Made by a program: the position numbers and the translations under genes
Notes under the pieces: model-generated
Databases searched by the model: none
What the model was told of the DNA's origin: nothing
The model's input: the letters and a program-made list of their open reading frames with translations, nothing else
Origin: Sphagnum magellanicum
Taxonomy: Eukaryota; Streptophyta; Sphagnopsida; Sphagnales; Sphagnaceae
Assembly (NCBI GenBank): GCA_021904315.1
Contig: CM038907.1
Span: forward strand, 26,605,223 to 26,669,222
DNA: 64,000 nucleotides
Direction of reading: 5' to 3'
In this document: in pieces, positions 2,508 to 64,000 of the stretch
Position numbering within the stretch: position 1 is the first letter of the stretch
How the letters are laid out: every line of letters starts with the position of its first letter

Positions 2508-4489
2508 TTGGCGCTAGAAAGAAAAAAAACTCCAATAAAATCTTTGTGTCTAGTTTCTCAGTTCTTCTATCTTCAAAACTAGTTACCAAGTCTTCACAAA
2601 TTTTGCTGTATGAACTTCAATGTGCGAAATTCAGAAGAGGTGGAATGAATTCCCATGGGCTTTTTAGAGCTCCTGGGGAAGAAAGAAGAAAGATTGGTTC
2701 TTCCAGTTTCTTCACAAGGACCTGATGAACGACGAAGACGACTCGTCCAAAAGCATTGCAAAAGTGTTTTTCTGACCACGGTTTTCTTCACTAAATCCTC
2801 CTCTCCAATTTTTCCACCTCAATTCAGCATTAAAAGTTGTGGTTTTTTTGGTCAGTTTTCTGATGTAGCATCATCAGGGTTTTTCTCTTTTTCATTTTTT
2901 ATGTTATCAAACATTTTGCGACTTTTTTCCAAAAATTAGCAAAATTAGTTTAATGTATAAGTTACTAGGAGACAAAATTTCCAAAACTTTTCCCAATTGT
3001 TTTTGGAAAAAAACAACAAAATTTTGTCAAATAAAAAAACACTGAGCATCATCGCAAGAAATATTTAGCATCAATGGCGACAACTTTTTGGAAAATGGTT
3101 CAAACTTCAAACAGTAGGAAAACTTACAAAAAATGGCCCCAAAACTAAAAACTTGGTCAAAATCAGGGGTTTTTTTTTCAATTTTGTGATGTCAAAAAAT
3201 TGCTAATTTTTCCCACGAAATTGCAAAATTATTCATATTTACACCCAAAAACAAAAATTTCCCAACTTTTCCCGCAACAAAAGCAACAAAATTTGTCTCA
3301 AAAAAAACAAATGATTGAAATGTGACAACTTTTTTTGGAAAAAACAAATTGATTTTTTTGGAAAAGAAAAGAGAATTTGCATCAGGATGATGAAAAACAA
3401 CTTCTGAAAATTCACGACAAAAAAAAAACACTGCTAGTAAAGCCCCAAAACAATGCAACAAAGCAAACAAGTGTTCAGTCATCAAAGTGCTGCATGCATT
3501 AAAAAGCAAAGCAGCATGCAAAGAGTTTGACCAACATACTTAGTAGCTTTTAAGTGGGAAAAAAATCAAATAAAAAAATTTTACTTTAGCTATGTTCTCA
3601 CTTTTGGGTCGATTTCTTTCTTTTTTTATTTTTTTAAATTTCAAAATTCGTGGAATTCATGAACAATAAATTTGTGAATGTTTTGGCTTTAGTTTTATTT
3701 TCATTTTTTTAATTTGTAAATGCAAATGCAATGGCAAGACTATTGCTGACATTGAAAATTTGCTGAAATGAATGAATGTCAGTACCAACTCAACATAGGT
3801 TTGTGCAGAATCAAATAGCCACAGCAACCCTAAAGAAAACAACCCATGAGTGGTCCAGAAGTAGATTACTCAAAGCAGATTAAGTCCCACTTAAAATCAG
3901 AGTTCAATCACAGGCAGACCGGCAAGCAGATCATGTACAATAGGGTTTGCTGGATGTATGGTATGACCAATAAAAGGAAAATTGTGTGACTCCAAATTGT
4001 GTGTTTAGGACTCTTGATTAGAGAGATAACTGAGCTAATTAGCGTCCTCACCCTATTACTTAATCACCTACTAGTGACTAACTAACTGATCAGGTAGAAT
4101 CCTTGCATTGTCAGCTCTGGCCATACAATGCCCGCCAGAGTAGACGATGGTATAAAGTAGCGCTGAGTAGACAGGAGTGGATGAGATACACATCAGAAAA
4201 CCCAATTCTGAGTTTGGGGAATACTTTCATTAAAATTCCATTACCACAAGTTTGTGGATCGAAATCACGGAATCACCCGCGCAAAGGAGGGAAGGAAGGA
4301 CCAGACTCTGTAGTCTTGCCTGTCAGTGCCTCCTCCACATGTAGGTTTTGGCTCAGATGTTCAAGACTCTAAAGCTCTCACAGCCTGCCCAATGGCACCA
4401 GTAAAATGGCCTTTCCAGTATGTTGTGGCTGAAGTGTTACAATCAAGTTGGTAGTGTAAAATTGCTTTGGGCTCATCAATATGCCCATG
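2508..4489. other. Upstream spacer with an A/T-rich low-complexity block
   Basis: The first ~250 bp upstream of the thioredoxin-like start presumably holds its promoter and 5' leader; I see no clear TATA box. From about 2,880 to 3,660 the sequence is a low-complexity mixture of A-runs and T-runs. Phrases such as CAACTTTTTGGAAAA and AACTTTTCCC recur about 250 bp apart (around 2,985-3,100 and 3,265-3,350), which suggests an old imperfect duplication. No gene is recognised. Confidence 0.5.
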
Positions 4490-4492
4490 TTA

Positions 4493-4864
4493 GAGCATCT
4501 ACACCGGTGTTCAATATGTCACTCTGGATAATAAAATTAAATGTCTAAGTTTAGCTTTTGTTTTTTTGGCAACCCCACCAATAAAACAGTAAGTGGAACT
4601 GCAAATACGTGGGAACTACCAATAGCAAACCACCTGGACCAATCATTATGATCGACAATCAGAAATACTGAGCCGCAGTCAGGTCCAATTTATTACACTC
4701 TGTTTTGGAGGTGCACAAGTGTGTTGGGCCTTTCACCAGCCATGGCAAGCTGCACCAATTTGGTGCAGAAAAATCAATTTCCTAAGCTAAACCGGCACAT
4801 TTTGACTTTTTCCCAATAAATTTTACTATCTGGAGTCACATACTAAGCACCGGTGGAGATGCTC
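4493..4864. mobile_element. Tourist-like (PIF/Harbinger) MITE, 372 bp, with TTA target duplication
   Basis: The ends form terminal inverted repeats: the left end starts GAGCATCTACACCGGTG and the right end finishes CACCGGTGGAGATGCTC. TTA lies immediately outside both ends (4490-4492 and 4865-4867), the 3-bp duplication typical of PIF/Harbinger elements. The interior has no coding capacity. A diverged second copy, carrying extra sequence, lies at 16,394-17,814. Confidence 0.88.
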
Positions 4865-9164: not shown

Positions 9165-9944
9165 GGTTACCGACTCTTTTTAGATGCATTACATGCCACC
9201 ACCATGATCATCATTAAGTGTAAAGGAAATATAATTATCATGCACATTGCTAACTACTTTTACAATGTAAGGACGTCAATTTAAAACTAAAAGTTTTATT
9301 TATGCATGGCAATAAAAGTAATGTGTTTTGAAATTATTAATTTTTTGTGTGTGTGAATTTCAAAATGAAAGGGCCCACAACATATTTGTTTTCATGTTCA
9401 ACCTTTGTTACAAGAATTTGCAATGCATCATGAAGTTTCTTGGTAGGGATATAGCTCAAATTCTTGTTGCCAAATGTGACAAAAAAACCCATGATTCATT
9501 TGTTGGTGAAAGTTAGTAAGGTTCTAAATCCTATTGGTGGCAACAATGCACTACAAACATTTTGATGTAAATAATTCCCTCTTTGATATTCCAACATCTA
9601 CTAAAGAAAATAATGATGCAATGCTAACATCTAAGATATTTGTGTTTTGGTATATTATTATGTTGAAGAAGAGGTTGTTCAACTTTTGAAATGGTGGAAG
9701 CACATTTAGCGATGTTCTTACATGTTTCTTTTTTAAATAAACATATACTTACAAGCCTAAATCTCAAATTGAAACTAAATGAATATTTTCAAAATTACGA
9801 TTTTTCTCATGAACTTGAGAGAATGTCACCTCAAAATTACAAAACTAGATGTGCTTGTATTGATTTTCAAAAACTAGTAAAATGGTATGAAAGACAATTT
9901 TTTTTATTGCATGTTCTATCATTAGAAAATCTTATTATATAGAG

Positions 9945-34039: not shown

Positions 34040-35660
34040 TGATGAGATGGACCAAAAAGTTGTTATGTTTTTCCAATGTGCTTTCATTGTTTTCGATTTT
34101 AAATACATCTTTAATGACAATGAGGATGAAGAGAATGGCCAATTCGTTGATCTAGCAATGGAGGTCTAGGATGTCTTGGCCACAAAGTAGGCCACACAAA
34201 CATTATTAAAAAACTTCAACAATTTCACATTCACAGAGTTTGAAGAGTTGGTAATTCAAGTAATGCCAATAATAATCTTTCATAATAGGTCCACATACAA
34301 GCCTTCTTGCCCTCAAAGTTGCATGATTAAGAATAGGTGTGATTTTAATGTTAAGGTTACGGTTTGTTTTTAAGGTTTAGGGTTTAAAGTGGGTTTAAGG
34401 TTTGAATTTTAAGGATTAAGATTTGAAATTTAATGCCTTATAGTATGAAATTTAAATTTATGGTTTGAAATTTAAGGTCAAGATTTGAAATTTTAGGCTA
34501 GGTTCTGAATTTTGGGGTTTATGGTTTGAAATTTAGGGTTTAAGGTTTGAATATTAAGGATTAAGATTTGAAAAAGTTATAGTTTGAAATTTAGAGTTTA
34601 AGGTTTGAAATTTAGGGTCATGATTTGAAATTTAAGGCTAGGTCTTGAATTTTGGGGTTTATGGTTTCAAATTTAAGGTCATGGGTTTGAAATTTAAAGC
34701 TATGTTTTGAATTTTATGGTTTAAGGTCTGAAATTTAGGGTAAGGTTTGAATTTAAAGTTTAAGGTCTAAATTACAAGTTTGGATATAAGGTTTAAGGTC
34801 TAAAATTGAAACTATTAAGGTTTGAATTTTTTTCCCATCATTCCAAGGGATACATTAATTGTATCAAGAAAATCATCAAAGTAACCTTGAATAATGATTT
34901 TTGAGCTTCATATTATTCATGAAGCATGAAAATGTTATCATTTATAACACCTTCATGTGAAACTAGGCAAAATTGTTATTATTTTACATTGTGTTATTAA
35001 ATGCATCATGCATTAATGGTGTTTTGGCGAACAAAATTTGTTGACCCATGCTTGATGAAAGGGTTGTTTTGGGTAGGCAATTGCATAAGTTGCCAAGGTG
35101 CATTAGGTTTATTGATGGGACATTGGTTGATATCTATAGGCCATGTAAGAACTCAAAACATTGGTCATGTTTTAATGGTTGGAATCAAATATTTGCAATG
35201 AACAACATTATGGTTTTAAACCACCATGGCTTGTTTATTTATATCAATATGAGCTACCTTAGGTCTTACCACAACATAAACATTCTCCATCTCTCCACCA
35301 TCTATTGGAAATGGTGTCATTATTTCACTTATGGGGGTTAGTATTTTGAATATTTGTTGAAAGTGTTGGGCTACTTGGGGAAATAATTGTTCATTATGTG
35401 CATGATAGGAGGGTGAGAGTTATCATTTGATATGAACCATGGTGTAGTTCTAACTTACAACAAAATTCACATGAGATTTAAGGTCATGATGGAACATTGG
35501 GGAATTCGTGGATTCAAAAGGAAATATTAACATTTCATGAAAATATTTGATTCCACAAAACCAAAATTTTCACATCTTCTCCAAACTAGGGTTTTTGTGA
35601 CCAACTACTACATTGGTGCCAAATGGACTTCCCATACAAGTCATTAAATATTACAACCTT
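34040..35660 (+). pseudogene. PIF/Harbinger-type transposase, decayed, interrupted by a telomere-like array
   Basis: The best part is 35,040-35,345: GRQLHKLPRCIRFIDGT is the RFIDGT motif of Harbinger DDE transposases, and it continues HWSCFNGWNQIFAMNN and HHGLFIYI. A further piece at 35,450-35,620 (IRGFKRKY, then FDSTKPKFSHLL) fits the C-terminal part of the same family. An N-terminal piece (34,050-34,330) has FTEFEELVIQVMP followed by NRSTYKPS. Between them, 34,345-34,835 is telomere-like repeat. Frames are broken many times. Non-autonomous relatives of the same superfamily (Tourist-like MITEs) occur at 4.5 and 16.4 kb. Confidence 0.65.
34345..34835 (+). repeat. Degenerate telomere-like array inside the Harbinger transposase
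   Basis: Repeats of GGTTTAGGGTTTAA, AAGGTTTGAAATTTA and GGTTTATGGTTTGAAATT, with periods of roughly 14-30 bp. The G-rich strand is on plus throughout. Confidence 0.75.
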
Positions 35661-35714: not shown

Positions 35715-36270
35715 CTTTTGCTCTAGGGTTTAGGGTTTGGATTATAGCTTTTGTATTAAGGTATAAATTTGTTAATGTTTAAATTAAGATTTAAGGTTTG
35801 AAATTAGGGTTTAAGGTTAAGATTTAGGGTTTAAAGGTTGAATTTTAAGTTTTATGGTCAAGATTTAAGGTTTAGGGGCCAAGTTTGAAATTAAGGTTAA
35901 TGTTAAGGTATAAAGGTTTTTAATTTAGGGTTAAAGGTTTGAATTTAATGTTTAAGGTTTGATTTAAGGTTTAAGGCTTGAATTTAAAGATAAAATAAAA
36001 GTTAAAATGTTAAAGTTTGAAATTTTAAATTTATGTTTTGAAATTAAGGTTTAGTGTTAGGGTTAAAGGTGAGGTTCAAAATTTTAAGGTTAGGGTTTTG
36101 GGTTTGAAAGCCTTTTATGGTTTGGATTTAAGGTTTAAATTTTAAATAAAAAAATTCAAGGGTTTAAATTAAGATTTTAAGGTTTGGATTTAGGATTCAA
36201 GGTTTTAGGTATGCATTTAGGTTTTAAAATTATTTTTTAAAAATTTAAGGTCTAGAATTTAATGTTTAAG
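35715..36270 (+). repeat. Degenerate telomere-like array right of the Harbinger transposase
   Basis: Same kind of repeat as 34,345-34,835 (GGGTTTAGGGTTTGG, AAGGTTTGAAATTAGGG), starting about 50 bp after the last recognisable transposase sequence. Confidence 0.75.
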
Positions 36271-51399: not shown

Positions 51400-52000
51400 A
51401 TTTAAAGCCATATTAAAAACATGGACTCCTAGACATGTTTGGAAATTATGAAAATTAAATATCATTAAATGGCATATTATTATGCATGTATGCATGGCCT
51501 CATACATGATGACCGGTTACGGGCATGACAATCATGTCTTTTAAAGTTAATGTACGTTCTTAGGGTTAATGTACGTTTTTTGGTTATTATACGCTATTAG
51601 GTGTTTTAGGGTTATGGCTTGATTAGGGCTTTAGCTTGTTGGCGGCTATATAAAAGGCTAAGGTCTTCCCTTCTTTTGTTAGTTTTTCAGAATTCCTTTG
51701 TTAATGAGAGTTTCCTCTATAGTCAGATTGGATTTCTAGATGCTCATGGCGGCTATTACACAGCCACCATTTACATACATTACACTTTATTTCCTTTTTT
51801 GTAATTTAATTATAGAAAAACTACTCTTTGTTGTTTAATGTTGAAAGCGATAGGTTTCTTTTGGTTTTGAGTTCTTGAATTTCTTTTGTTGGTGTTGTTG
51901 TTGTTGGTGTTACCACTAGTGTTGTTGTTGCTGCTAGAGGGAACTTGTGTTATTACACCTCTGCTAACCAACAGAGCCGGGATTGGAGGAGTTGGGAATA
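51400..52000 (+). mobile_element. Candidate 5' LTR/promoter part of the gypsy element
   Basis: A TATA motif (CTATATAAAAGG, about 51,646-51,657) in a stretch with ordinary promoter layout lies about 1.2 kb before the first gag-like sequence. Near 51,985 an ACAGAGCC stretch recalls the end of an initiator-Met primer-binding site. No matching 3' LTR is in the window, so boundaries are a guess. Confidence 0.3.
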
Positions 52001-52817: not shown

Positions 52818-54131
52818 CATGTCTTCGAATGAGGAGAGCATTACCACTTAGCTAGAGCTTAGGAATCAGCTACGAAGTAACACACAATCTTTTGAATCGA
52901 TTTCTTTGAGCTCACGATTTTCACGACGATAACATCAAGTGTCTACAATGCCATTGTCATCTAGTACAACTCCTACTAGGAATTTAGGTTGAGGTTACAC
53001 TACATCAACGGTACATTATAGTCCATTTAGAGGGGTTTATCAGTGTGGTATGCCTGTTGCTACACTTGATTTCACACCACCGTATATTTCGTTGCAAGCC
53101 GTGACTTCTACACCTATATAAAGCATGGAGGTTAAAAGTTTTTTAGAAGAATTGAGAAGTTCAACGAAAGGCCAGGTACCATTTCTTTGAGAGAATTCAA
53201 GGCAACTTTTTCAACTGTGGTTTGTGAATTGGAGCTCAAGTATGGGGTTAATTACACTGAGGCATTCACATTCAAACAATTGGCCCGTTATGTGCATTAT
53301 GAGGCATTGGATGTCTATGAGCAACATTTTTCGAGGATTTTGGGCATCACTCAAATCCCCAATCTAACTTATGCCACAACCATTGCCATCATCTCTCAAG
53401 TTGCATTGCAAGTTGCTATTGCACATCATGGGATTATGCCCAATAATCCAGACTTGGTACCTACTTCAGTAAACCTTTCTCCTCAACAACTCATTGTTAT
53501 TATCGCAAACATTCCTCCCACCATCGATGCATTAGCTTTTGTTGATCTAGTGGGGGAATTCTTTCAAGTTCTTGAGTTGGAATTTTTGGTTAAAAGTTTT
53601 AAAAAAATTCTACAATTTGCCACCTTCTCTCGGCAGAAGGATGAAACCTTTAAGATGCTTTATAGGAGGTTTTTCAAGTTTAAAGAGGATACTCAAACCA
53701 TCATAGACCTGGAAGTTGCCCATAAGTATCTTCATTCATTGGAAGGTACTTTGACACTCCACGTGTAGGTTTTGCAATAGGTTTTTGTAGAATTTGGAAA
53801 CTTGTACATTTTGTTGGATGTGTATAACATTTCTGAAAAACTAGAATTGGTTCATGCACATTATGAGGCCAATACTATGAAGCCTCCATCACGTTCAAGG
53901 CCTCATCTTCCACCAGTTGCGCCAACCAGATCATCGCGTTCTTTTTCAAGGGCTAAAGCAATGCACTCAGCTGCACCCATCCTACCTTCTTGCAACTACT
54001 GTAGCAATCCCACCCATAAAGATAGTAAGTGCAACATTCCTTTCGAGGATTTCTTTTGTGATTATTGTGGGAAAGAGGGACATTACGAAGCTGTTTGTTT
54101 TGCCAAGTTTTCAAAACGGAAGCAATTCTGA
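52818..54131 (+). pseudogene. gypsy gag region with two CCHC zinc knuckles (fossil)
   Basis: The readable part at 53,187-53,768 has the helical, hydrophobic/aromatic pattern of a gag capsid region (for example FKQLARYVHYEALDVYEQHF). It is followed by two C-x2-C-x4-H-x4-C knuckles: CNYCSNPTHKDSKC and CDYCGKEGHYEAVC. Two tandem knuckles are usual for nucleic-acid binding by gypsy nucleocapsid. Confidence 0.75.
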
Positions 54132-55199
54132 TTACCACGGCAAAATTTGCTAACATCTTTCGTTGCCCTTCAACCAAAAGCCAAGGCGCTCAACTTTCCA
54201 TTCAAGCTTTCCCCACCAAGGGTAATTCCAATAAGAATGCTAAGAAGAAAGAGCACAATGCTGACAAGAGGGAAGTGCTTCAAGCCCATGCCGCTAAAGT
54301 TCAAACTCTACAAAATAAACTTGAATCATTGAGGGCCCAACTTGCTAATCTAGCTAATCTAAAAGGCAAGTCTTTTCAACTAGCTAGTCATGCCCAACCT
54401 ATACAGGGTTCAAGATCACACAAAGGACCTCCTAGGTCATTCTATGGCCTCTCACACGATGCCATGGTTGGGGAGTATGTTCTTTCCAGTGCACATAATT
54501 CTAGTTTCACACTAGAATTTGCCACTTTTTTTTGCCCTTCCTACTTTGTGGCACAAGAGGCTAATGTGGCACCTAAAGTTTTTGCTACTAGATAGGTAAT
54601 TCAGATTGATGGACTCACATTTGGTTCAAGTCCTATTACCAAGGCTAGAGGAGCTCGAGTAGTCATGCCACAATCTTTTCATCTTCTTAACACGAAAAAA
54701 GAATGCACCTTATTGGTGAGGGGGGAGGAGACTACTACACCACAAGCTACTAAGGCGTCAAATTTTCGTGTCCTAGGAGTACATGTACATCAGGAAAACA
54801 CACAATTTTCCAATGATCAGTTTATGGAGTGCTAACTTCAAAATGCGTGAAATGGCGCAAAAGCTTGTGAATACACCGTGTTTAGTTTTCAAGATTTGAA
54901 GCTAAGCACCAGGGACATAATTACAGTGTTAAAAGATACCTTGAACATTACATTAGGTCCTTTACTAATCCTTGATCCACATCCTACAGGGGTCCCGTCC
55001 AACACCTTGGAGAAACATTTGATTGGCTCACATGTTGCAGATGGCGTTTGTAATCTAGTCACTAATTTTAGCATGGCTAAACTAATGGGCTCTCCTACCT
55101 CTGATTCTACATTCACATATTAGAAGGGAACTAAGAACACCTCATTTGTGGATTTGTTACTCAACAAAAGTGTTGTGGATAGCCATTCTCTCCACAAAG

Positions 55200-55500
55200 T
55201 TTTTCATTCATTTTCAAAGGTGGTGCTTAATGAGAAAACTTCCATCGCCACTAGAGTTACCATTGTCGACAATATTGAGTTAGTAATCCAGGTGGGAGGA
55301 CATACACCCAGAGTGGTATTTCTTGATACATGTGCCCAACCAATGATTCTTGGAGTTCAATTCGCCAAGAAAATGTGCATGCTCAACTCCAAACTATGGA
55401 AATTTGTGTGGCAAATTTGCACCGTTAGTGGGAGCGTAGAAGAGGTATTTAGGGAGAGCTTGGATTTGATTACATTTAACTTCAATGAAGGTACAAATTA
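55200..55500 (+). pseudogene. Retropepsin-like protease region (fossil)
   Basis: A VVFLDT stretch followed by QPMILG about five residues on, in the position expected between the knuckles and the enzymatic domains, resembles the active-site loop of retroviral-type aspartic proteases. The rest of the fold is hard to follow. Confidence 0.5.
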
Positions 55501-55979
55501 AGAGCTTTGTTTACATGTTAGATGTTTAATCACCAATGCCACAGTTACGATGTGTTCATTGGGCAAGAAGCCTTGTTTCCACCAAGTTTCAAAATTGACA
55601 ATTGGTTTGAACATGCGTACTACCAAGTGGATTGGGAGATTAATGGCCACCACCTGGGATACATACCCTTTAATTTACATGGGAATCATAGTCCTATGGC
55701 TCACCATTGTATGCTCAAGGAAGCACACACCATTTCCTACATCCAACAAGCTAGCCACGAGTGGATAGAGGGAGATGAAGAGGAGAAAGCTTATGCCTAA
55801 GCTACTGAAAGCTTGAAGGTGGTTCCTATAAACATTCCACATGGACCAAAGGTTTTACAGAGGTTCAAAGCAACCTATAAGCCCTTGGTCAAAGTTCTGT
55901 TTAGTTTTGAGCATGGAGAGCCATGGTGAATCGATTAAACTAGTATTTCATCGACTAATCATTTGCACATCACCTAAGG

Positions 55980-56740
55980 AGGGGATTACATTACTAAAGC
56001 TCTTTGGTGGTATTGGGACAGATCTTGAAGCCCTACTATAGTTAGGGATGGTGGTTCGGAGGTATTTTTACGTAGACATTGATCATATTGCAAGGCAAAT
56101 GGCAGCATCGAGAATAATGGAACTCACAACCATATTTCCACAACAGTTTGCAACCATCGCATGGAAGGTTAATTTCACTTTCTTGCCTTTTGACATACAA
56201 TTAATTTAGAAGAAACATATGGATGTACTTGGCCTCATGGATTTCATCATTTTAGTTTGGGAGTGTTAAAGATTTTCAACGGCTAGATTTGGAGAAGGCT
56301 TGAATGACACAAGATCTAGTCTCTTCACGGACATGGTATGATTGATCACCTAGGCTTAATCCATTTCTCCTACGTTTGGTTATGTAATTGAAAAAACCCT
56401 TTCTTAGCTTGACCAAAGGGAAAAAGTCTAAGAACACTACGCGTTGGTCAAACATTACCTTGGAGCGCTCCTCCTACTCAATGTAGCACAATGCGGTTCC
56501 TATGCGCACTAGTAGTGCAATTGGTGGACCAACCTTGCACCACTTTCAATTCTACAATTTGCTCTGAGATACACCATCAAAGACCCCAACTTGTAGGTTT
56601 CTCAAATATTAGATGATCAAAGCTCCTACTAATTAGTTACAAGGCAACAAAAACCTCCTTGGTTTCTTGCGAACACAATAGGAAAACCAAAAGATGCTTA
56701 GCCCACCTTTATCTCCTTCCCATGAGCTATGAGCTCCATC
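55980..56740 (+). pseudogene. Cytosine-5 DNA methyltransferase domain inside the gypsy element (fossil)
   Basis: Ordered motifs of the C5-methyltransferase family are visible: motif I (S-adenosylmethionine binding) as LLKLFGGIG followed by DLEALL; a motif II-like YFYVDIDHIARQMAASR; a stretch ending in VWEC where the catalytic Pro-Cys motif IV normally lies, followed by a FGEGLNDTRS segment; a motif VI-like FGYVIE; and a motif VIII-like AQCGSYAH. The spacing fits a single bacterial- or DRM/Dnmt-like catalytic fold of about 250 residues. It is collinear with protease to the left and reverse transcriptase to the right. The copy is broken. Such a domain could in life have methylated the element's own DNA; that is inference. 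Confidence 0.72.
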
Positions 56741-56919
56741 ATTCTTACTGTTGGGGGTGGAGGAGGTACCATGTAATTTGACTCAAGATGTTTCTAATAC
56801 ACCTGAACATACATCAACTTTTGGAGAAACAATTACAACCTTCTACAAATCTGCGCAATTGGACATCACAAACTTGCCCCTTCTTTGTATGAGTGCTTTT
56901 ACAACACCTTAACAATATG

Positions 56920-57540
56920 TTCAACGTTCAATGTTGATACAATCATTGATATGATGTTAAAGTGACATTGTAACAACATGTCCTGAAATGGCATTGATAT
57001 AATACTAAAACATTTAACATCTTATCAATATTAAATCAATGAAAAAAATATGACCAACATTGGCACAACAGACATTAATAAGTCATCAAATTGACGACTA
57101 TATGTTGAAGATTCAATGCTAATATGGTCATTGATACAATATGTTGATGGCACTACAACAATATGTATTGAGTTAGCATTGGGATTATTTTGACATAATT
57201 TACATTTTTTCAACACAAATTCAAAAAATAAGATCTTGTCAATGTTGAGACAACACAAATTGATTAGCTATTGAATTGATGTTATTACAACCTTCATAAA
57301 GGTGGAATTTCAATGTTGTTGCATATCATATAAAATCAACACATTAAAAATGTTAAAACAATGGTACTCATTGTCACAACATTAATACAATCCTATGAAA
57401 TGCTGCAATATCAAATGGGCAAATAACGAACATTGATTCAATATAAATCAAATCTTGCATTCGATAAGTGTTGAAACAACTAGTAGCATTGTTTTGACAT
57501 TGATTCATAGCAAATCAATACAACATTGCATTTATATTGT
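56920..57540 (+). repeat. Left subterminal repeat array (AACATTGATACAAT-like words)
   Basis: Words such as CAATGTTGATACAATCATTG, CATTGATATAATAC and ACAACAATATG recur every 20-40 bp. The same vocabulary reappears near the right end of the insertion. Confidence 0.65.
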
Positions 57541-57819
57541 TCCATATAAATTATATAATATATACTTGCATTATGTATAGGTAAAGTGAAAAAAAACTCC
57601 AAGTCTTGCACTTTACAAGCTAGTCTTATTTTACAAACTATTTTCCTTGAAATGATTCACATTGATCACATGAGTTGGAAGGTCGGGCCTAGTCTTAAGA
57701 TCGATTCTTCAGATTTCTAAAATTTTTGGGTTCCAGTTATTTTTCCCGTCACTAGTTAAACAAAACAGCAGCTCGCCCTACCGGGCTCATCACATTCCTG
57801 GGTGGAATGGGCTCTGTTC

Positions 57820-57850
57820 CATGGTACATTCTGCCCTGGAATGTACCTCC
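57820..57850. repeat. Short palindrome
   Basis: GGTACATTC and GAATGTACC flank TGCCCTG; a perfect 9-bp inverted repeat at the AT-to-GC transition of the insertion. Confidence 0.7.
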
Positions 57851-57934
57851 TTCATTCAGTGGCATAAACTCGGGCAGTATGTGCTTTTTTAGTACCTATT
57901 CCACTGCGGGCTGAGGCAGTATTGAGGGCAGAAT

Positions 57935-58440
57935 TTAAGTTTTATAAGCGGGTAGTGCACGCAGAGCGAGAGAAAGAGTGAGAGAGAGAGAAAAAAAAAC
58001 AAGCATTGTTGTCTTGTGTCTCTCGCACTTCCTTCTTCCACCATCACCGCTGTTGTCAACGATTTCACTACTTCCAAGGACGTTGTGTTGCGGGTTAAGC
58101 TGCATGGAAGCTCTTCCAGTGCTCTGAACAACGAACGGCTGACGGGATTTGAACATTTTGGCGAAAATGTGGTAAGACCTTAAGATTCTTCTTCTTCTTC
58201 TGATGCATGCGTGGAAGCCTGAAGTAATAAAGCTGGAGCTCTCTCTGTCTGATATGTAGGCGGAAGTAGTTATATCCGGAATCTGTGTGAGAGAGAGGGG
58301 GGAATGAATGCGAGAATGTAGGATTTTCATTCAAGAAACAGAGCTCTCAAGCTGTTGCAGCTGAAGCTCTAATACTATTCTAGAGCCAACTGCAAATCAG
58401 GCAGGGCATGCTGTTGTAAGTGACGACGAACGAGAGCGGC
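57935..58440 (+). promoter_or_regulatory. Promoter/leader-like GC-richer stretch with a GA tract
   Basis: A TTTTATAAGCGGG motif (about 57,940) is followed by a GA-rich tract (57,965-57,990) and CT/GA-rich leader-like sequence, with a GTGGTAAGACC donor-like site near 58,168. It looks like a plant 5' leader captured in the insertion. Confidence 0.35.
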
Positions 58441-58443
58441 ACA

Positions 58444-58787
58444 ATGAACGACCTTCTAGCGGTATGTATGTTGCTAACCCTGTCCTGGTATCACGATTTT
58501 TCCTTTCTGTAAAAGAGTCGCTCGTAATGGATTGCGTGCTTGCGATCCATCAGATTCCTGCTTCCAACTGCCTCCAAGGAACTGATTGCAGAGTGTTTTT
58601 TTTTTCCTGTTCTTGAAACTCGCAATCCTCCTGTGTTGTTGTAGCTTTAAGCAAGATTTTCTTTTCTCGTTCGAAACAGGACCTTATCCGAACAAGCAAG
58701 TGCTTGTCGGACTTCTGCTGCAACGTTGTGACCAGATCCTTCACCGTAGAGATCCTTAAGGAAACTCTGCGACCTGCTGAAACATAG
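58444..58787 (+). CDS. Possible two-exon small frame (41 aa), captured host fragment
   Basis: ATG at 58,444 opens six codons (MNDLLA) up to a donor G|GTATGT at 58,461. An acceptor TCGAAACAG at 58,679 leads into 35 more codons that continue in frame (DLIRTSKCLSDFCC..., ending ETLRPAET) to TAG at 58,785. The splice sites are good, but no family is recognised and the product is very short. It may be only the start of a truncated gene. Confidence 0.2.
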
Positions 58788-59436
58788 CTATTATGCTATT
58801 TCACGGTGCTTTACAGGAGCAAATCGGCAGTCTAGAGGAAATGCGGGTTTCCGATTAGCGGGATGCTTGCTTGTTTGCTTGTCTACTGATTACATTGTGC
58901 ACATCTTCTTCAGAACTTGAACTAGTGTCAATAGTTCAGGCCATATCAACTACCAGAACTCTACGATCTTCTTGTCTCGTTTGCAAAATAGGTTGAAACA
59001 AAAGCTTCAGCTGCTCAGAAAAGCAAGCTCTACCAGAACTAGTATTGTTTTCACTGTTCACCACTGAGTGCAGGAGAAACAGTGGAACCTTTTGATCCAA
59101 GCAAGCTTGTATGATGTGGTATGCTTTCCAGTGCAACTACAAAAACTGCATTGCATTAGGGCTATAACAAATCAACCAACTTGATTGATTTCCTGTGCAA
59201 CTAGAAAATGCAATATAGAGTTCCAACAGATGTGGTAACAGTGGCGTTAATGTATACCTTAGGTCTTACATGCAGCTGCTTGCCTGTACAGAAATGAAGC
59301 TTACCCTCATCACAAGCTTATTCGCAGCTTGGGTGATCACTACACAAGATTTTCATTACTGATGTCTCTTAAGTGTTAGCCAACATTGTGATGCAGTCCT
59401 CTTGTTGCTTCCAGAAACTTAACAGAAACTCAGAGG

Positions 59437-59679
59437 ATGCACATGTTCTATAATGCAGTTTACCCAAAATGTTGGGCAGAAGATATAACCTATACTTTAT
59501 CTACACCCACCCACTGTCAGGAGTTGTTGAAGTTTGTAGGGAGTCATGGTAGGTTGAAATTTCAACACATTGAACACATGGACAATGTGGAATGTGGTGT
59601 AGTAAGTGTTGGAAATGTAAGAAGTTTTAATGTGGTATTTGTCTATGAACTAGAGAAAAACTTTGCTAGCAAAATTTGA
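59437..59679 (+). pseudogene. Unidentified open frame in the insertion core
   Basis: An 80-codon frame with protein-like composition (for example HCQELLKFVGSHGRLKFQH). I do not recognise it. It may be an exon of the same captured locus as the J-protein-like fragment to its right, or a chance frame. Confidence 0.2.
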
Positions 59680-59934
59680 TTGTAGGTTATGTGTAGTTTG
59701 AGGAGTGAATGATTTTGAATCACAATCATCGAGGTTTAGAACTGTTTATGATTGTTAACATGAGATCACAAAAATAATGAACATAATTGGATGCTTATAG
59801 GATTTGTTTGTGCAAGTAGCTGTGCGGTAGGCACCAAAGTTTTGCAAAGAACATTTGAAATAGCAGTGAGATTTTAAAACCAAGATGCTCATGAGTTTTA
59901 TATCTTGATAATGCAGCAGAAGTCATTCAATGTG

Positions 59935-60400
59935 CAGGTCTTCCAAAGATTGTTGCGTTTACTCCTGTTTGCAGGCATTTAGGCTGTCTCACTAGGTACA
60001 CTATGACATATGAAGTTCATCTGCTTCTCATTCCATCAAATCTCAGAAGGCTTGTCCTATTTCCATTCTATGCAATTAGTCACTCAGTGGGGATGAAGAG
60101 TGTTTCAGTTTCTGGTGACTAAATCACAATTGGCAACCTACAGTTTGAAAAAGACTAATGGAGAGGGTTGTGAATTACAGGTTTCATGGGGAGAAGACAG
60201 TGGATGCTTTGGTGGAATGGGTGGCAACATCCCTTCTCAAGTTGCCTCGCATCTTGTACGATGGTGCTAAAGGCTTGGTAACCCACAATACCCACTATCT
60301 GAGTAATAGTTTTATGGTTGAAGTTCTACAAGGTTGCCTCTGTTGCCTTTGTCTTGAATTTGCAACAGCCCACTTTATACTTGTGTGAAGTTTTGATTAG
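59935..60400 (+). pseudogene. Fragment resembling the thioredoxin-like region of plant ER J-domain proteins
   Basis: A piece near 59,937-60,000 reads GLPKIVAFTPVC followed by GCLTRY. From 60,158 comes YRFHGEKTVDALVEWVATSL, then KLPRILYDGAKGL, and in another frame from about 60,328 KVASVAFVLN. This order (LPxLVAF..C..DCxTRY, RFxGExxVDAVxxWxAT..LxLPRILYYSKE, then SFAFVL) is what I recall from plant DnaJ/thioredoxin-fold proteins of the ER. Intron-like gaps remain, so it would be a DNA-level capture rather than a processed copy. At least one frame change is present and the J domain is absent. Confidence 0.4.
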
Positions 60401-61968
60401 TCAGGTTTTTGGATCTTTAGTTCAGAGAATGCACACAACAATTGATTGCAGAGTGCTTCTGGAAGGGAATCATGGCCTTGCCATGGTGAACCCAAATCAT
60501 GAATCCAAGCTGATTACCTGATCATTTGTTGGGTGAAATACATGCAGATGACAGATGTAATCTAGAAAACAGGTCTTCACTTAATTTTTCTTTGCCTGCA
60601 CTGTTGGTGATGACATACATGATGTTGATGAATATTATTGCTTCCATGCTTTGTTGGAAATTACATTGAGCAGAGCTGTGTTTATAATGGTAGGAATTCA
60701 GTGTTCAACATTAAGCTTCTAGGACAACAAACAAAAAAACGAAATTAGATCAAAGAATGCTTTCTGGGACTTCGCATATTTTCTTGTGTGGAAACTTAGC
60801 AAAACTGGTTTGTGCTTTTTCTTCTTCACCTTGAACCAAATTTGCAAGTGGTTGTTTGTTTATACTCGAAGCTGCTGCACACAAATTAAGAACTCTGAAG
60901 ACAATTCCTTTGCTGTAGTAGATTCTGTTGTTGAAAGATTGTCTATCCAGTGTCGATAGATAGTTCCTAGTACAGTACTACGTAGGATCTGGATCTGAAT
61001 TTGACCACTGCACTGCTGAAAGAAAGTCTCCTTTCAGAAGTTCGGATTCCGGAATAACCCCAGGCCCTTGCGTGGCAATAGAATTTTTTCTCACGTCGTT
61101 CTTTTGTATATAGTCGAACATTTGCACTTCCTCTATGATTGGAATTGCGTACAGGAAGTTGTTGCTCATGAAGTAGGTGTGCAACTCTGGTATAATGTGG
61201 GGTCCCTTCACTTGTGAAAGTCATGAGAGATTGCTGTTACGTATGGCATGGTATTGCGACGCTTGTAACCCCTAATCTTGCTTTCCAGGAGTCAGCCACT
61301 CCTGAGTTTCTATATCCAATCCATTTCATGCACCCTCCAAAGTACTAGGGTTTCAAATTTTGACAGTAGTTGTTTCTGCAGTTGCAACAAAATGAGGTCA
61401 AGGTTGAGATCATGTCTCCTGACATACCTATTTGTGTTCCTTTCATGAGAATCTGTAAATCGTTGGTCTGTGAATGATCAGTCCTTGCATCTCATTGGGA
61501 GCTGCGGTTATAACCTTTTTCTCCTTTTCACGCACCTTCTAATTTGCCTTCTGTGGCTTGCAACAATTGAGAGCAAGTCTTTCAGCCAAAGCAAATATTG
61601 AAAGGACCACTGGCAGATGATGGTGGGCAAGGATTTTGCTTTGCAATGAAGAACTGCAGCTTCAAGCAGTACTCAGGCCACATCCAGTAACACCCCATGG
61701 GATGACATTCAGGGAGTTGATGGCACATGCACACATCTTCAAGCATTTGTAGATCTGCTACGGACAATTGATGTTACAATGCAAATGGTGCTAAGTGCTG
61801 CTGCTTGTTAGTCATACCAGTTGGAAAATGGTATGCAGAGCAGAGATAGCTAGTTCATTTCCATTGATTTCACCTCCTTGATCCTGGGCCCTGACAAATA
61901 TATAATAGGATTTTTGCACTCTGTCAGCTTTTAGTGGGAAGAGCAAAACCCTGGACACACTTGTGCCC
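60401..61968. other. Insertion core without a recognised gene
   Basis: GC-richer, host-like sequence. A 77-codon minus-strand frame (60,978-61,211; for example FMSNNFLYAIPIIEEVQMF) has reasonable composition but no family I know. Confidence 0.3.
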
Positions 61969-62465
61969 CTTGCAGAGGAATGGTAGAAATTGAAATGGTG
62001 TTAAAGGTCAGGGAGGTGGGTGAGAGTCTTGATACTCTGTTCAAGCACCAGGATTGCCAAGACAGGGAAGCAATGCTTATTCGGGCAAGCTTTTCCAACG
62101 TAGGAGAGAGTTTGATTGGTGGCTTGACCCTGGGATCCAAGCGAGCAGTTGTTTGTGCAGAACCTTCAAACACCTCCTGTCCTTCAGCAACATTGATGTT
62201 GTCTACTTCTCCTTCAAAGGCCACAATTGCAAGCTCACATGCAAGCTTTGTGTCTTCACAACCCATTCCCATTGTCCTGCAAGAGAAACACAATCCATAT
62301 GTTACAGACAAGGGACATTTGGTCACATGGCTAGATGCCATGAAAGCTCAATCTCCTCCCCAGTTCCACTCTCTTCATGGAGATACTCCTGAATCATATG
62401 ACATGGAGGCAGCAGAATATGCAGCTTGGCTTGTAAGCAACAAGAACTTCAAAACCCTCGAGTGA
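61969..62465 (+). CDS. Uncharacterised 161-aa frame, possibly the last exon of a captured host gene
   Basis: The frame from ATG 61,980 to TGA 62,465 sits directly after a good acceptor (TGTGCCCCTTGCAG|AG, 61,968). The product is Ser-rich in the middle and ends with HGDTPESYDMEAAEYAAWLV then SNKNFKTLE, a plausible helical C-terminus. I do not recognise the family. An antisense frame of 136 codons overlaps and is judged a shadow. Confidence 0.3.
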
Positions 62466-62649
62466 AGATTTGGATGGTAGATAGGGAGTTGCAATGGTTG
62501 GGCTTCTACTGTACATTTATTCTTTCATAATTGCTAGCCACACTCTCATGGAGTTTTTCATCTGGTTTTTGAGTCTGCTTCTTGAGTCCTTGTTGACATA
62601 AGTGTCACTATGGATACCTGCCAGCTAAGATATGGAAGAATGCTGATTG

Positions 62650-63080
62650 AAAAGTAACATAAATAACAAGAATATAACATTGAGTCAATATTGAATATCT
62701 AGTTTGTAGCTATGTTGTTGCAACATTGCATCCCCTATGTTCAACAATGCACATGCAATGCAAATACGATGTTGAAAAAATATGAGTACAACATAAATAC
62801 AAAATATACCCAACATGAATACAATATAGAATCAATACAATAATAGAGATTGTAACCATATTGTAACAACATTGTATCATTTACAACTAAAAATGCATAT
62901 CCAATATAATCATAATATTAATGCAATATCATTACAATATGGACATAATGTGAATACAACATGGCAAATAACATAAATACAATGCAAATATGATGCTACA
63001 TCAATTATCATTGAAACAATACCAAAATTAAATCAATACAATCTAAATTGTTTCAATGCCTATTTTATACGAACAAAGCA
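62650..63080 (-). repeat. Right subterminal repeat array
   Basis: AT-rich words (ACAATATGGACATAATG, AACATTGTATCAT) mirror those at 56,920-57,540 when read on the opposite strand, which supports both arrays belonging to one element. Confidence 0.6.
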
Positions 63081-63153
63081 CTAAACCTTGGACATCTTGT
63101 AAAAGTATTGTGAAAGCACTTAAATAGCACTAATACAAAAGGGTCCCCACTTT

Positions 63154-64000
63154 GTGATGGATAGTGGAGAACCTAATACACCATGTTCTTCAAACACACT
63201 TTCCAACTCCATCCCATGTGTTTCCAACTACTCTTTCATTATGGGGAACCAACTCACCAAGAAGGAGAGACACCAGGTCACAAACTTGTTAATTAAATAT
63301 GAGAATTTGTTCGCATTCTCAATGAAAGACTTAGGTAGGTGTAAGACCATGCAGTTCTCTATAAACCTTATAGATGAGATCCATTTATCAGAGGAGGCAT
63401 AGGTTGAACAAGCATGAGTGGGAATTGATAGATGAAAGATGCAAAGAGCTCCATGAGGCTGGTCTCATTCAGCCATCAATATCTAATTTCGTAGCCACTA
63501 TAGTATTGCTAGCAAAGAAAGATTCAGCTAGATTATGGACTGAAAAAAGGATGTGCGGGGATTATAGGCTTTTGAATTTGGTTACACCTCAAGATAGGTA
63601 CTGCATGCCCATCCTTGAAAAACTATTTGATAGCATTGGAAACTCAAACATCTTCACAATTATGGATATGAGGCAACGCTTCAACTAGATTGTGCTCGTT
63701 GCAAAGGATTGCAAGAAAACGACATTCCATGGAAGTAACAAGTTTTGGGAATTGCTTGTGATGCCTTTTGGATTGAAGAATGCACTTGTCTTCTTTTAGT
63801 GAATCATTGTTTTCAAAGGGGCAGATTTCCTGAAGTGTTACATAGATGACGTCCTAGTGCATAGCAAGGGATTCTTGTAACTCTTCTTCATTTTGAGGAG
63901 TTATTTAAGAGACTCCACGAAATCAATATGAAGATCCATCTTAAAAAGTGTGAGTTTGTTGTCACCTTAGTAGTCTACCTTGGACACAAAATTTTGCCAA
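63154..64000 (+). pseudogene. Ty3/gypsy reverse transcriptase region (fossil), continues past the window
   Basis: The order of gypsy reverse-transcriptase landmarks is plain: a KYENLFAFSMKDLG lead-in, ELHEAGLIQPS, a CGDYRLLNLVTPQDRYCMP block, an IFTIMDM stretch, then VMPFGLKNA, a CYIDDVLVHS-like box and, near the window end, a KCEFVV...YLGH block. It is collinear with the gag/protease/methyltransferase parts to the left and is broken. Confidence 0.85.

Follow-up and report, generated by a model that had tools for sequence, protein, structure and literature searches.

A 64,000-nucleotide stretch of the genome of the peat moss Sphagnum magellanicum (contig CM038907.1, positions 26,605,223 to 26,669,222; the window, below) contains a retrotransposon of Ty3/gypsy type that carries a cytosine-5 (C5) DNA methyltransferase (MTase) domain between its protease and its reverse transcriptase (RT). 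The copy in the window, to judge from its sequence, is a dead, nested-into member of a high-copy Sphagnum family. The polyprotein of that family would run gag-protease-MTase-RT-RNaseH-integrase-PHD, with an MTase of DNMT3 type, flanked by unlike repeats (A-coding-B, in some cases followed by a further A-B), and the enzyme may serve to mark the element's own complementary DNA (cDNA). We give this explanation as a whole an even chance of being right. Its architecture, the many copies, the purifying selection, the kinship with algal elements, and the C-to-T decay are established so far as sequence comparison can establish them; self-methylation by the element's enzyme is what we infer beyond these.

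The MTase domain was located at positions 55980 to 56722 of the window, on the forward strand, by motif search, the PF00145 profile, protein search, and tblastn. The initial annotation had noted C5 MTase motifs in the right order on one strand, and all five do share a single frame between 56000 and 56509: motif I (LFGGIG, 56000-56017), motif II (YVDID, from 56069), motif IV (VWEC, 56258-56266, with the cysteine codon at 56264-56266), motif VI (FGYVIE, 56375-56392), and motif VIII (AQCGSYAH, 56486-56509). The profile search that it proposed succeeds with the relatives but not with the window copy itself. The stop-masked translation of the window scores 17.7 bits (E = 0.0025), short of the PF00145 gathering cutoff of 22, because the copy has decayed, while all five relatives scanned pass, as does the intact element L029 at 35.4 bits. 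These relatives, beyond 22 bits and with motifs in the order I-IV-VI-VIII-IX/X, place the domain among C5 MTases of DNMT3 type. The decay of the window copy is extensive: 13 stops fall within 55910-56722, the frame changes upstream of the MTase, and the stretch matching residues 226-335 of protein P0122 (roughly the last quarter of the domain plus some linker) has been deleted between 56722 and 56745. The match is nevertheless far beyond chance, since the masked translation finds 202 proteins at E ≤ 1e-3 (120 of them listed), the best at 6e-112, and since the open protein P0121 (1,214 amino acids) aligns by tblastn from gag to MTase along one strand, 53148-56722, with E values of 0 to 1.7e-149. 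P0122, also open (820 amino acids; MTase-RT-RNaseH), aligns to 56048-56722, 56745-56864, and 63157-63999. The claim that a gypsy-type element of a land plant has a C5 MTase between protease and RT is upheld.

The genome searched (438,994,042 bp in 31 contigs, the window lying at C1:26605223-26669222) holds many such elements. The MTase query matched at least 101 stretches at at least 100 places (100 of 1,158 candidates scored), the window copy not among them, and 11 of the 101 stretches listed are free of stops. A genome-wide search for the same arrangement in other elements had been suggested at the outset, and the order of domains is indeed kept in the two families described here. In the first, L029 has a single open frame of 2,379 amino acids with all domains in the order given above: the protease at residues 728-824 (PF13975 at 28.2 bits, exactly the cutoff), the MTase from about 961, RT at 1487-1641, the integrase (H2C2 plus rve) at 1952-2120, and a PHD finger at 2330-2374. 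Its start is gag-like in that P0121 aligns over residues 10-1225 of L029, although no curated gag family matches either L029 or the gag-like part of the window. Elements L030-L037 repeat this order in one or more frames of at least 250 amino acids. Within such frames, PHD was recognized in L030, L033, L034, and L035, as in L029, but not in L031, L032, L036, or L037, and the RT of L036 lies in none of them. Elements L038-L040 (from C14:10652000, C18:10527000, and C8:22141000, respectively) form a divergent second family of the same domain order; here L038 alone showed a PHD, and L040 showed no protease. L038 is probably recent, since its two A repeats are 98.6% identical; in the youngest insertions the repeats agree at 99-100%. 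The Sphagnum compactum protein P0099 belongs to the first family (80% identity to L029). The unnamed proteins among P0001-P0122 are presumably moss-type, metagenome protein P0122 being 97.6% identical to L029, and a different host is possible for P0014 (70%) and P0121 (76%).

The domain appears to be a regular part of family 1. An MTase match was listed no more than 4.5 kb upstream of RT for 77 of 114 RT matches (from 4,873 candidates) and for 53 of the best 60. Six of the remaining 37 were fetched: three (L053, L054, and L057) have the MTase, broken by frame changes, one (L055) has only its C-terminal part, and two (L052 and L056) retain the linker to RT with no MTase within 2.6 kb and appear cut or interrupted inside that linker. 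Family copies without the domain at this position, which the initial annotation had named as fatal to its claim, were therefore not encountered: none of the 77 plus 6 copies looked at, out of 114, cleanly lacks it. Since L053, L054, and L057 carry the domain yet were missing from the lists, the copy counts given here are lower bounds.

By its domains the element is of Ty3/gypsy type. L029 has protease, RVT_1, RNaseH, H2C2, and rve in sequence, the best match of RT-RNaseH in PDB is Ty3 itself (E = 5e-62), and insertion is marked by short target duplications of rve type, 4 bp in length. By its ends it is not, for instead of two identical flanking long terminal repeats (LTRs), the elements whose ends are in view bear different repeats, A and B. 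The split direct repeats are those of DIRS/PAT-like elements, but the tyrosine recombinase of that class is replaced by rve, and no recombinase is among the Pfam matches of L029 and L038. In L032, for example, A (1026-1340) precedes the coding part, and B (9247-9424), A (9423-9737), and B (9738-9915) follow it. The A-coding-B-A-B form is complete in L032, L038, and the window element joined to its continuation beyond the window (L041). L030 and L031 also carry the further A-B, only their right ends (B-A-B) being in view, with the first A beyond it. L029 and L033-L036 have A-coding-B only, the duplication coming immediately after the first B, and L037, of which the first B and part of the first A are in view, shows no A-B within 913 bases behind that B. 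The elements begin with TGTC and end with GACA. Seven of eight target duplications are exact, CTCT (L029), CAGC (L032), TGAC (L033), GGAG (L034), GGTT (L035), TTTC (L038, family 2), and ATAT (the window element with L041), and the eighth has one mismatch (TAAT/CAAT, L036). Where a GC lies between the first B and second A of L030, L031, and L032, the junction reads GACAGCTGTC, a perfect palindrome, and the identical ten bases occur in L038. The palindrome would fit two element ends joined in a circle, and from the occurrence of split repeats together with rve-type duplications, the integrase would seem to open the joined B-A junction. L030 (8906-9763) and L031 (9368-10000) also contain tandemly repeated sequence, ahead of the coding part or next to it.

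Relatives occur in algae. A search with P0123 found 145 proteins at E ≤ 1e-3 (8,000 scored candidates), of which 120 (P0123-P0242) were listed as the algal-type set. Named sources are Chlamydomonas eustigma, Haematococcus lacustris, and 'Chrzof1', read as Chromochloris zofingiensis; most of the set are unnamed metagenome proteins, presumably algal like the named ones. By profiles, 44 of the 120 have exactly the order RT-RNaseH-MTase-integrase-PHD, and the others show it in part, in some cases with one match doubled or a G-patch added, except Haematococcus P0199, where protease is followed by MTase and the gene model has no RT. Integrase is followed by PHD in 78 of the 120. The algal polyproteins thus resemble the moss elements in the clade of their MTase, in their motif IV (mostly ECQ), and in the integrase-PHD pair, but their MTase lies between RNaseH and integrase rather than between protease and RT. 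A G-patch-like domain directly follows the MTase in P0123, P0127, P0128, P0139, P0141, P0144, and P0226, the match being weak in several of these seven.

Among published elements, KnitGypsy-Dnmt3 of the charophyte Klebsormidium nitens comes closest; it is a gypsy element by its domains, with a DIRS-like repeat structure (de Mendoza et al. 2018, PMC5890265). The Sphagnum elements are of this kind: in both, a gypsy-type element has a DNMT3-related MTase with unrearranged motifs within its Pol frame, DIRS-like repeats are present, and the MTase domain is under purifying selection (PMC5890265). They differ in that the host is a moss, that at least two families inhabit one genome, one with at least 100 copies, and that there is a PHD finger, a word absent from the main text of that paper (PMC5890265). 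SymbioDIRS-Dnmt3 of Symbiodinium shares the retrotransposon-borne DNMT3 and split repeats, but as described there it uses a tyrosine recombinase, whereas the Sphagnum elements have an rve integrase and 4-bp target duplications (PMC5890265). A later paper mentions, citing that of 2018, DNMT3 within retrotransposons of streptophytes and dinoflagellates, naming LTR Copia and DIRS in the passage concerned (PMC12344493), and another reports DNMT3 absent from the green algae of MMETSP (PMC9998398). No report of an MTase-bearing retrotransposon in a land plant was found in open-access full texts, subscription journals lying largely outside that search. So far as found, then, these are the first land-plant cases of a published kind, marked by two families in one genome, a PHD finger, an unusual ECQ motif under selection, and a place of the MTase in Pol that differs from that in the algal-type elements found.

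What might such an element gain from an MTase? In the explanation that we favor, the enzyme would be made inside the particle beside RT and would methylate newly made double-stranded cDNA or circles of the element itself, and new copies would arrive already marked. The PHD finger adjoining the integrase may assist in selecting chromatin or in binding to it. Copies that are marked beforehand would pass for silent DNA of the host and be less harmful, and the family might therefore reach a high copy number.

Judging from pairwise ratios of nonsynonymous to synonymous differences (pN/pS), the family-1 MTase is under purifying selection about as strong as that on RT. Several considerations, however, weigh against the explanation, the first being that those ratios come from stretches picked for being open and from pairs that are not independent: 0.232 for the MTase (9 copies, 36 pairs), 0.271 for RT (10, 45), 0.249 for RNaseH (8, 28), 0.157 for integrase (8, 28), 0.259 for gag (7, 21), and 0.406 for protease (12, 66). 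In family 2 the ratios are 0.41-0.83 (0.52 for the MTase), from one to three pairs per domain with too few changes to carry weight, and between the families the synonymous divergence (dS) is saturated. Second, of 6,504 sites at which the window copy was compared with four copies that agree with one another, 753 differ, 503 of the differences being C>T or G>A, and in this single copy C>T amounts to 33.5% at CG, 39.1% at CHG, and 12.1% at CHH. Given this bias toward CG and CHG, the copy probably spent a long time in a methylated state. But plant MET1 and CMT serve CG and CHG, and such decay is expected from host enzymes on any plant transposon, so it gives no pointer to the element's own enzyme. 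Third, the proline before the catalytic cysteine of C5 MTases is usually near-invariant, and family 1 has GWECQ or SWECQ at motif IV, with no Pro-Cys. ECQ occurs in no fewer than 97 of the 112 moss-type rows and no fewer than 87 of the 120 algal-type ones (the algal rows mostly have EC, with PC in at least 12 of 120). With glutamate in place of the proline, DNA methylation by family 1 may be altered or lost. Finally, the one assay of a comparable enzyme, that of KnitGypsy-Dnmt3 in yeast, yielded no methylation, an outcome that the authors term inconclusive (PMC5890265).

Perhaps, then, the domain is kept for some other role, the ECQ form being an RNA methyltransferase or a module that binds S-adenosylmethionine and nucleic acid and aids packaging or strand transfer. 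The prevalence of ECQ in a domain yet under strong selection, as well as the inactivity of the KnitGypsy enzyme in yeast (PMC5890265), would be accommodated. We consider this unlikely, though worth keeping in mind: the cysteine, the Glu-Asn of motif VI, and one tyrosine are invariant across 25 aligned rows, motifs I and VIII are largely kept (some decayed moss rows deviate, e.g., VIKNT in 8 of 96), and family 2 of the same genome has GWPCQ at motif IV, retaining both PCQ and ENV. Or perhaps the host keeps or tolerates the domain since it silences the element, with no advantage of hiding, one option put forward by de Mendoza et al. (PMC5890265) and one consistent with the CG/CHG decay of the old window copy. 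Sequence alone cannot separate such self-restraint from self-marking, but selection acts on the element's own frame and an extra, slower benefit would be required, and we regard the idea as quite improbable.

Where did the domain come from? An MTase tree of 54 rows was made from 38 of 109 full-length algal-type domains (every third plus the named ones), P0199, 10 moss-type rows, and five references (DNMT3A, three Sphagnum DRMs, and HhaI, with no unrearranged plant DNMT3 and no KnitGypsy row). The retrotransposon rows split from the references at 95/92, the algal-type rows form one group at 99/99, and family 2 branches off outside a group of family 1 and the algae (97/95), DNMT3A and HhaI lying on long branches; the data do not reject one clade for all moss rows (p = 0.466). 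The tree proposed initially thus groups the moss domain with algal retrotransposon MTases, apart from DRM, DNMT3A, and HhaI, as represented by those five rows. In a tree of RT plus RNaseH (28 rows: 24 of 48 eligible algal-type, two of family 1, one of family 2, and Ty3), the algae group at 97/97 and the two moss families at 87/69. The simplest reading would be one old domain, predating the split between moss and algal elements and moved once within Pol; several independent captures from related hosts are possible. Least probable of all is that a single moss element recently took up a Sphagnum host MTase in an event of its own, with no link to the algal cases. The literature does hold that dinoflagellate and charophyte elements captured host DNMTs independently (PMC5890265), but two Sphagnum families and 39 algal rows stand on one side of the tree at 95/92 (against five long-branched references), moss-alga identity averages 36% as opposed to 25-31% to DNMT3A and DRM, the rows of which span only about half of the columns, and the host genes encountered are DRMs with rearranged motifs and one gene of DNMT1 type.

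Those DRM genes (L042, L043, and L044) are DNMT3 relatives like the element domain but have rearranged motifs, in contrast to its canonical order. L043 has SPCQNFS, and L042 and L044 have SPCNNLS. The catalytic domains of animal DNMT3A and DNMT3B are 19-25% identical to the element domain in structural alignments and have PCN where family 1 has ECQ; neither ADD nor PWWP is among the Pfam matches of L029.

The ECQ motif, PHD finger, and algal relatives held in common suggest an ancient lineage. We would wager equally for and against the broader proposition that MTase-bearing gypsy elements are an old green-plant lineage, from chlorophytes to mosses, with split repeats, integrase-PHD, a change from PCQ to ECQ, a domain moved once in Pol, and self-marking, and that in a land plant they are numerous and have been active recently. 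If so, such elements are more than a curiosity of one charophyte. In any event, land plants now join the hosts of retrotransposons with a DNA MTase, and since a sequenced peat moss has many copies, some fully open, the old question of why a transposon should carry the very mark that silences it becomes testable. An ECQ family and a PCQ family in one genome offer a natural comparison. Surveys of mosses or green algae for PF00145 genes may miscount unless element copies are set aside.

The rest of the window element can be followed from its 5' target duplication, ATAT, at 51474-51477 (the start of A was placed by alignment, its first bases being decayed). The decayed repeat A1 follows at 51478-51786 on the forward strand (blastn with the A of L032, 73.8% over 309 columns, E = 1.5e-46). 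All coding parts lie on the same strand. The gag-like part, 53148-54188, matches P0121 residues 9-355 by tblastn at 68.9% identity with three stops and has two CX2CX4HX4C zinc knuckles, spotted by eye, near 53.99-54.10 kb. The rest of gag and the aspartic protease occupy 54167-55579 (P0121 residues 349-818, 51%), the protease motif reading DTCA where relatives have DTGA. The linker from protease to MTase lies at 55495-55923 (P0121 797-937, 66%) and that from MTase to RT at 56745-56864 (P0122 336-375, 70%). There a 6,292-bp insertion that is not part of the retrotransposon (56866-63157, with imperfect terminal inverted repeats beginning TCACAAA and flanks TGGACA and TGGATA) separates the MTase from RT, which resumes only at 63157, runs to 64000 (P0122, 73-89%), and continues into L041 (C1:26669000 onward). 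On the masked translation RVT_1 gives 27.6 bits (E = 2.9e-6), slightly under the cutoff. Within L041 are B1 (4133-4281), A2 (4287-4598), and B2 (4601-4773), equivalent to about 67.9-68.55 kb in window coordinates, and the second ATAT (4774-4777) comes directly after B2. Elsewhere in the window, at 34351-34766 and 35772-35987, are tandem arrays of TTAAGGTTTGAAATT-like units, with periods of 20, 41, 58, and 140, perhaps decayed telomere-like or satellite sequence.
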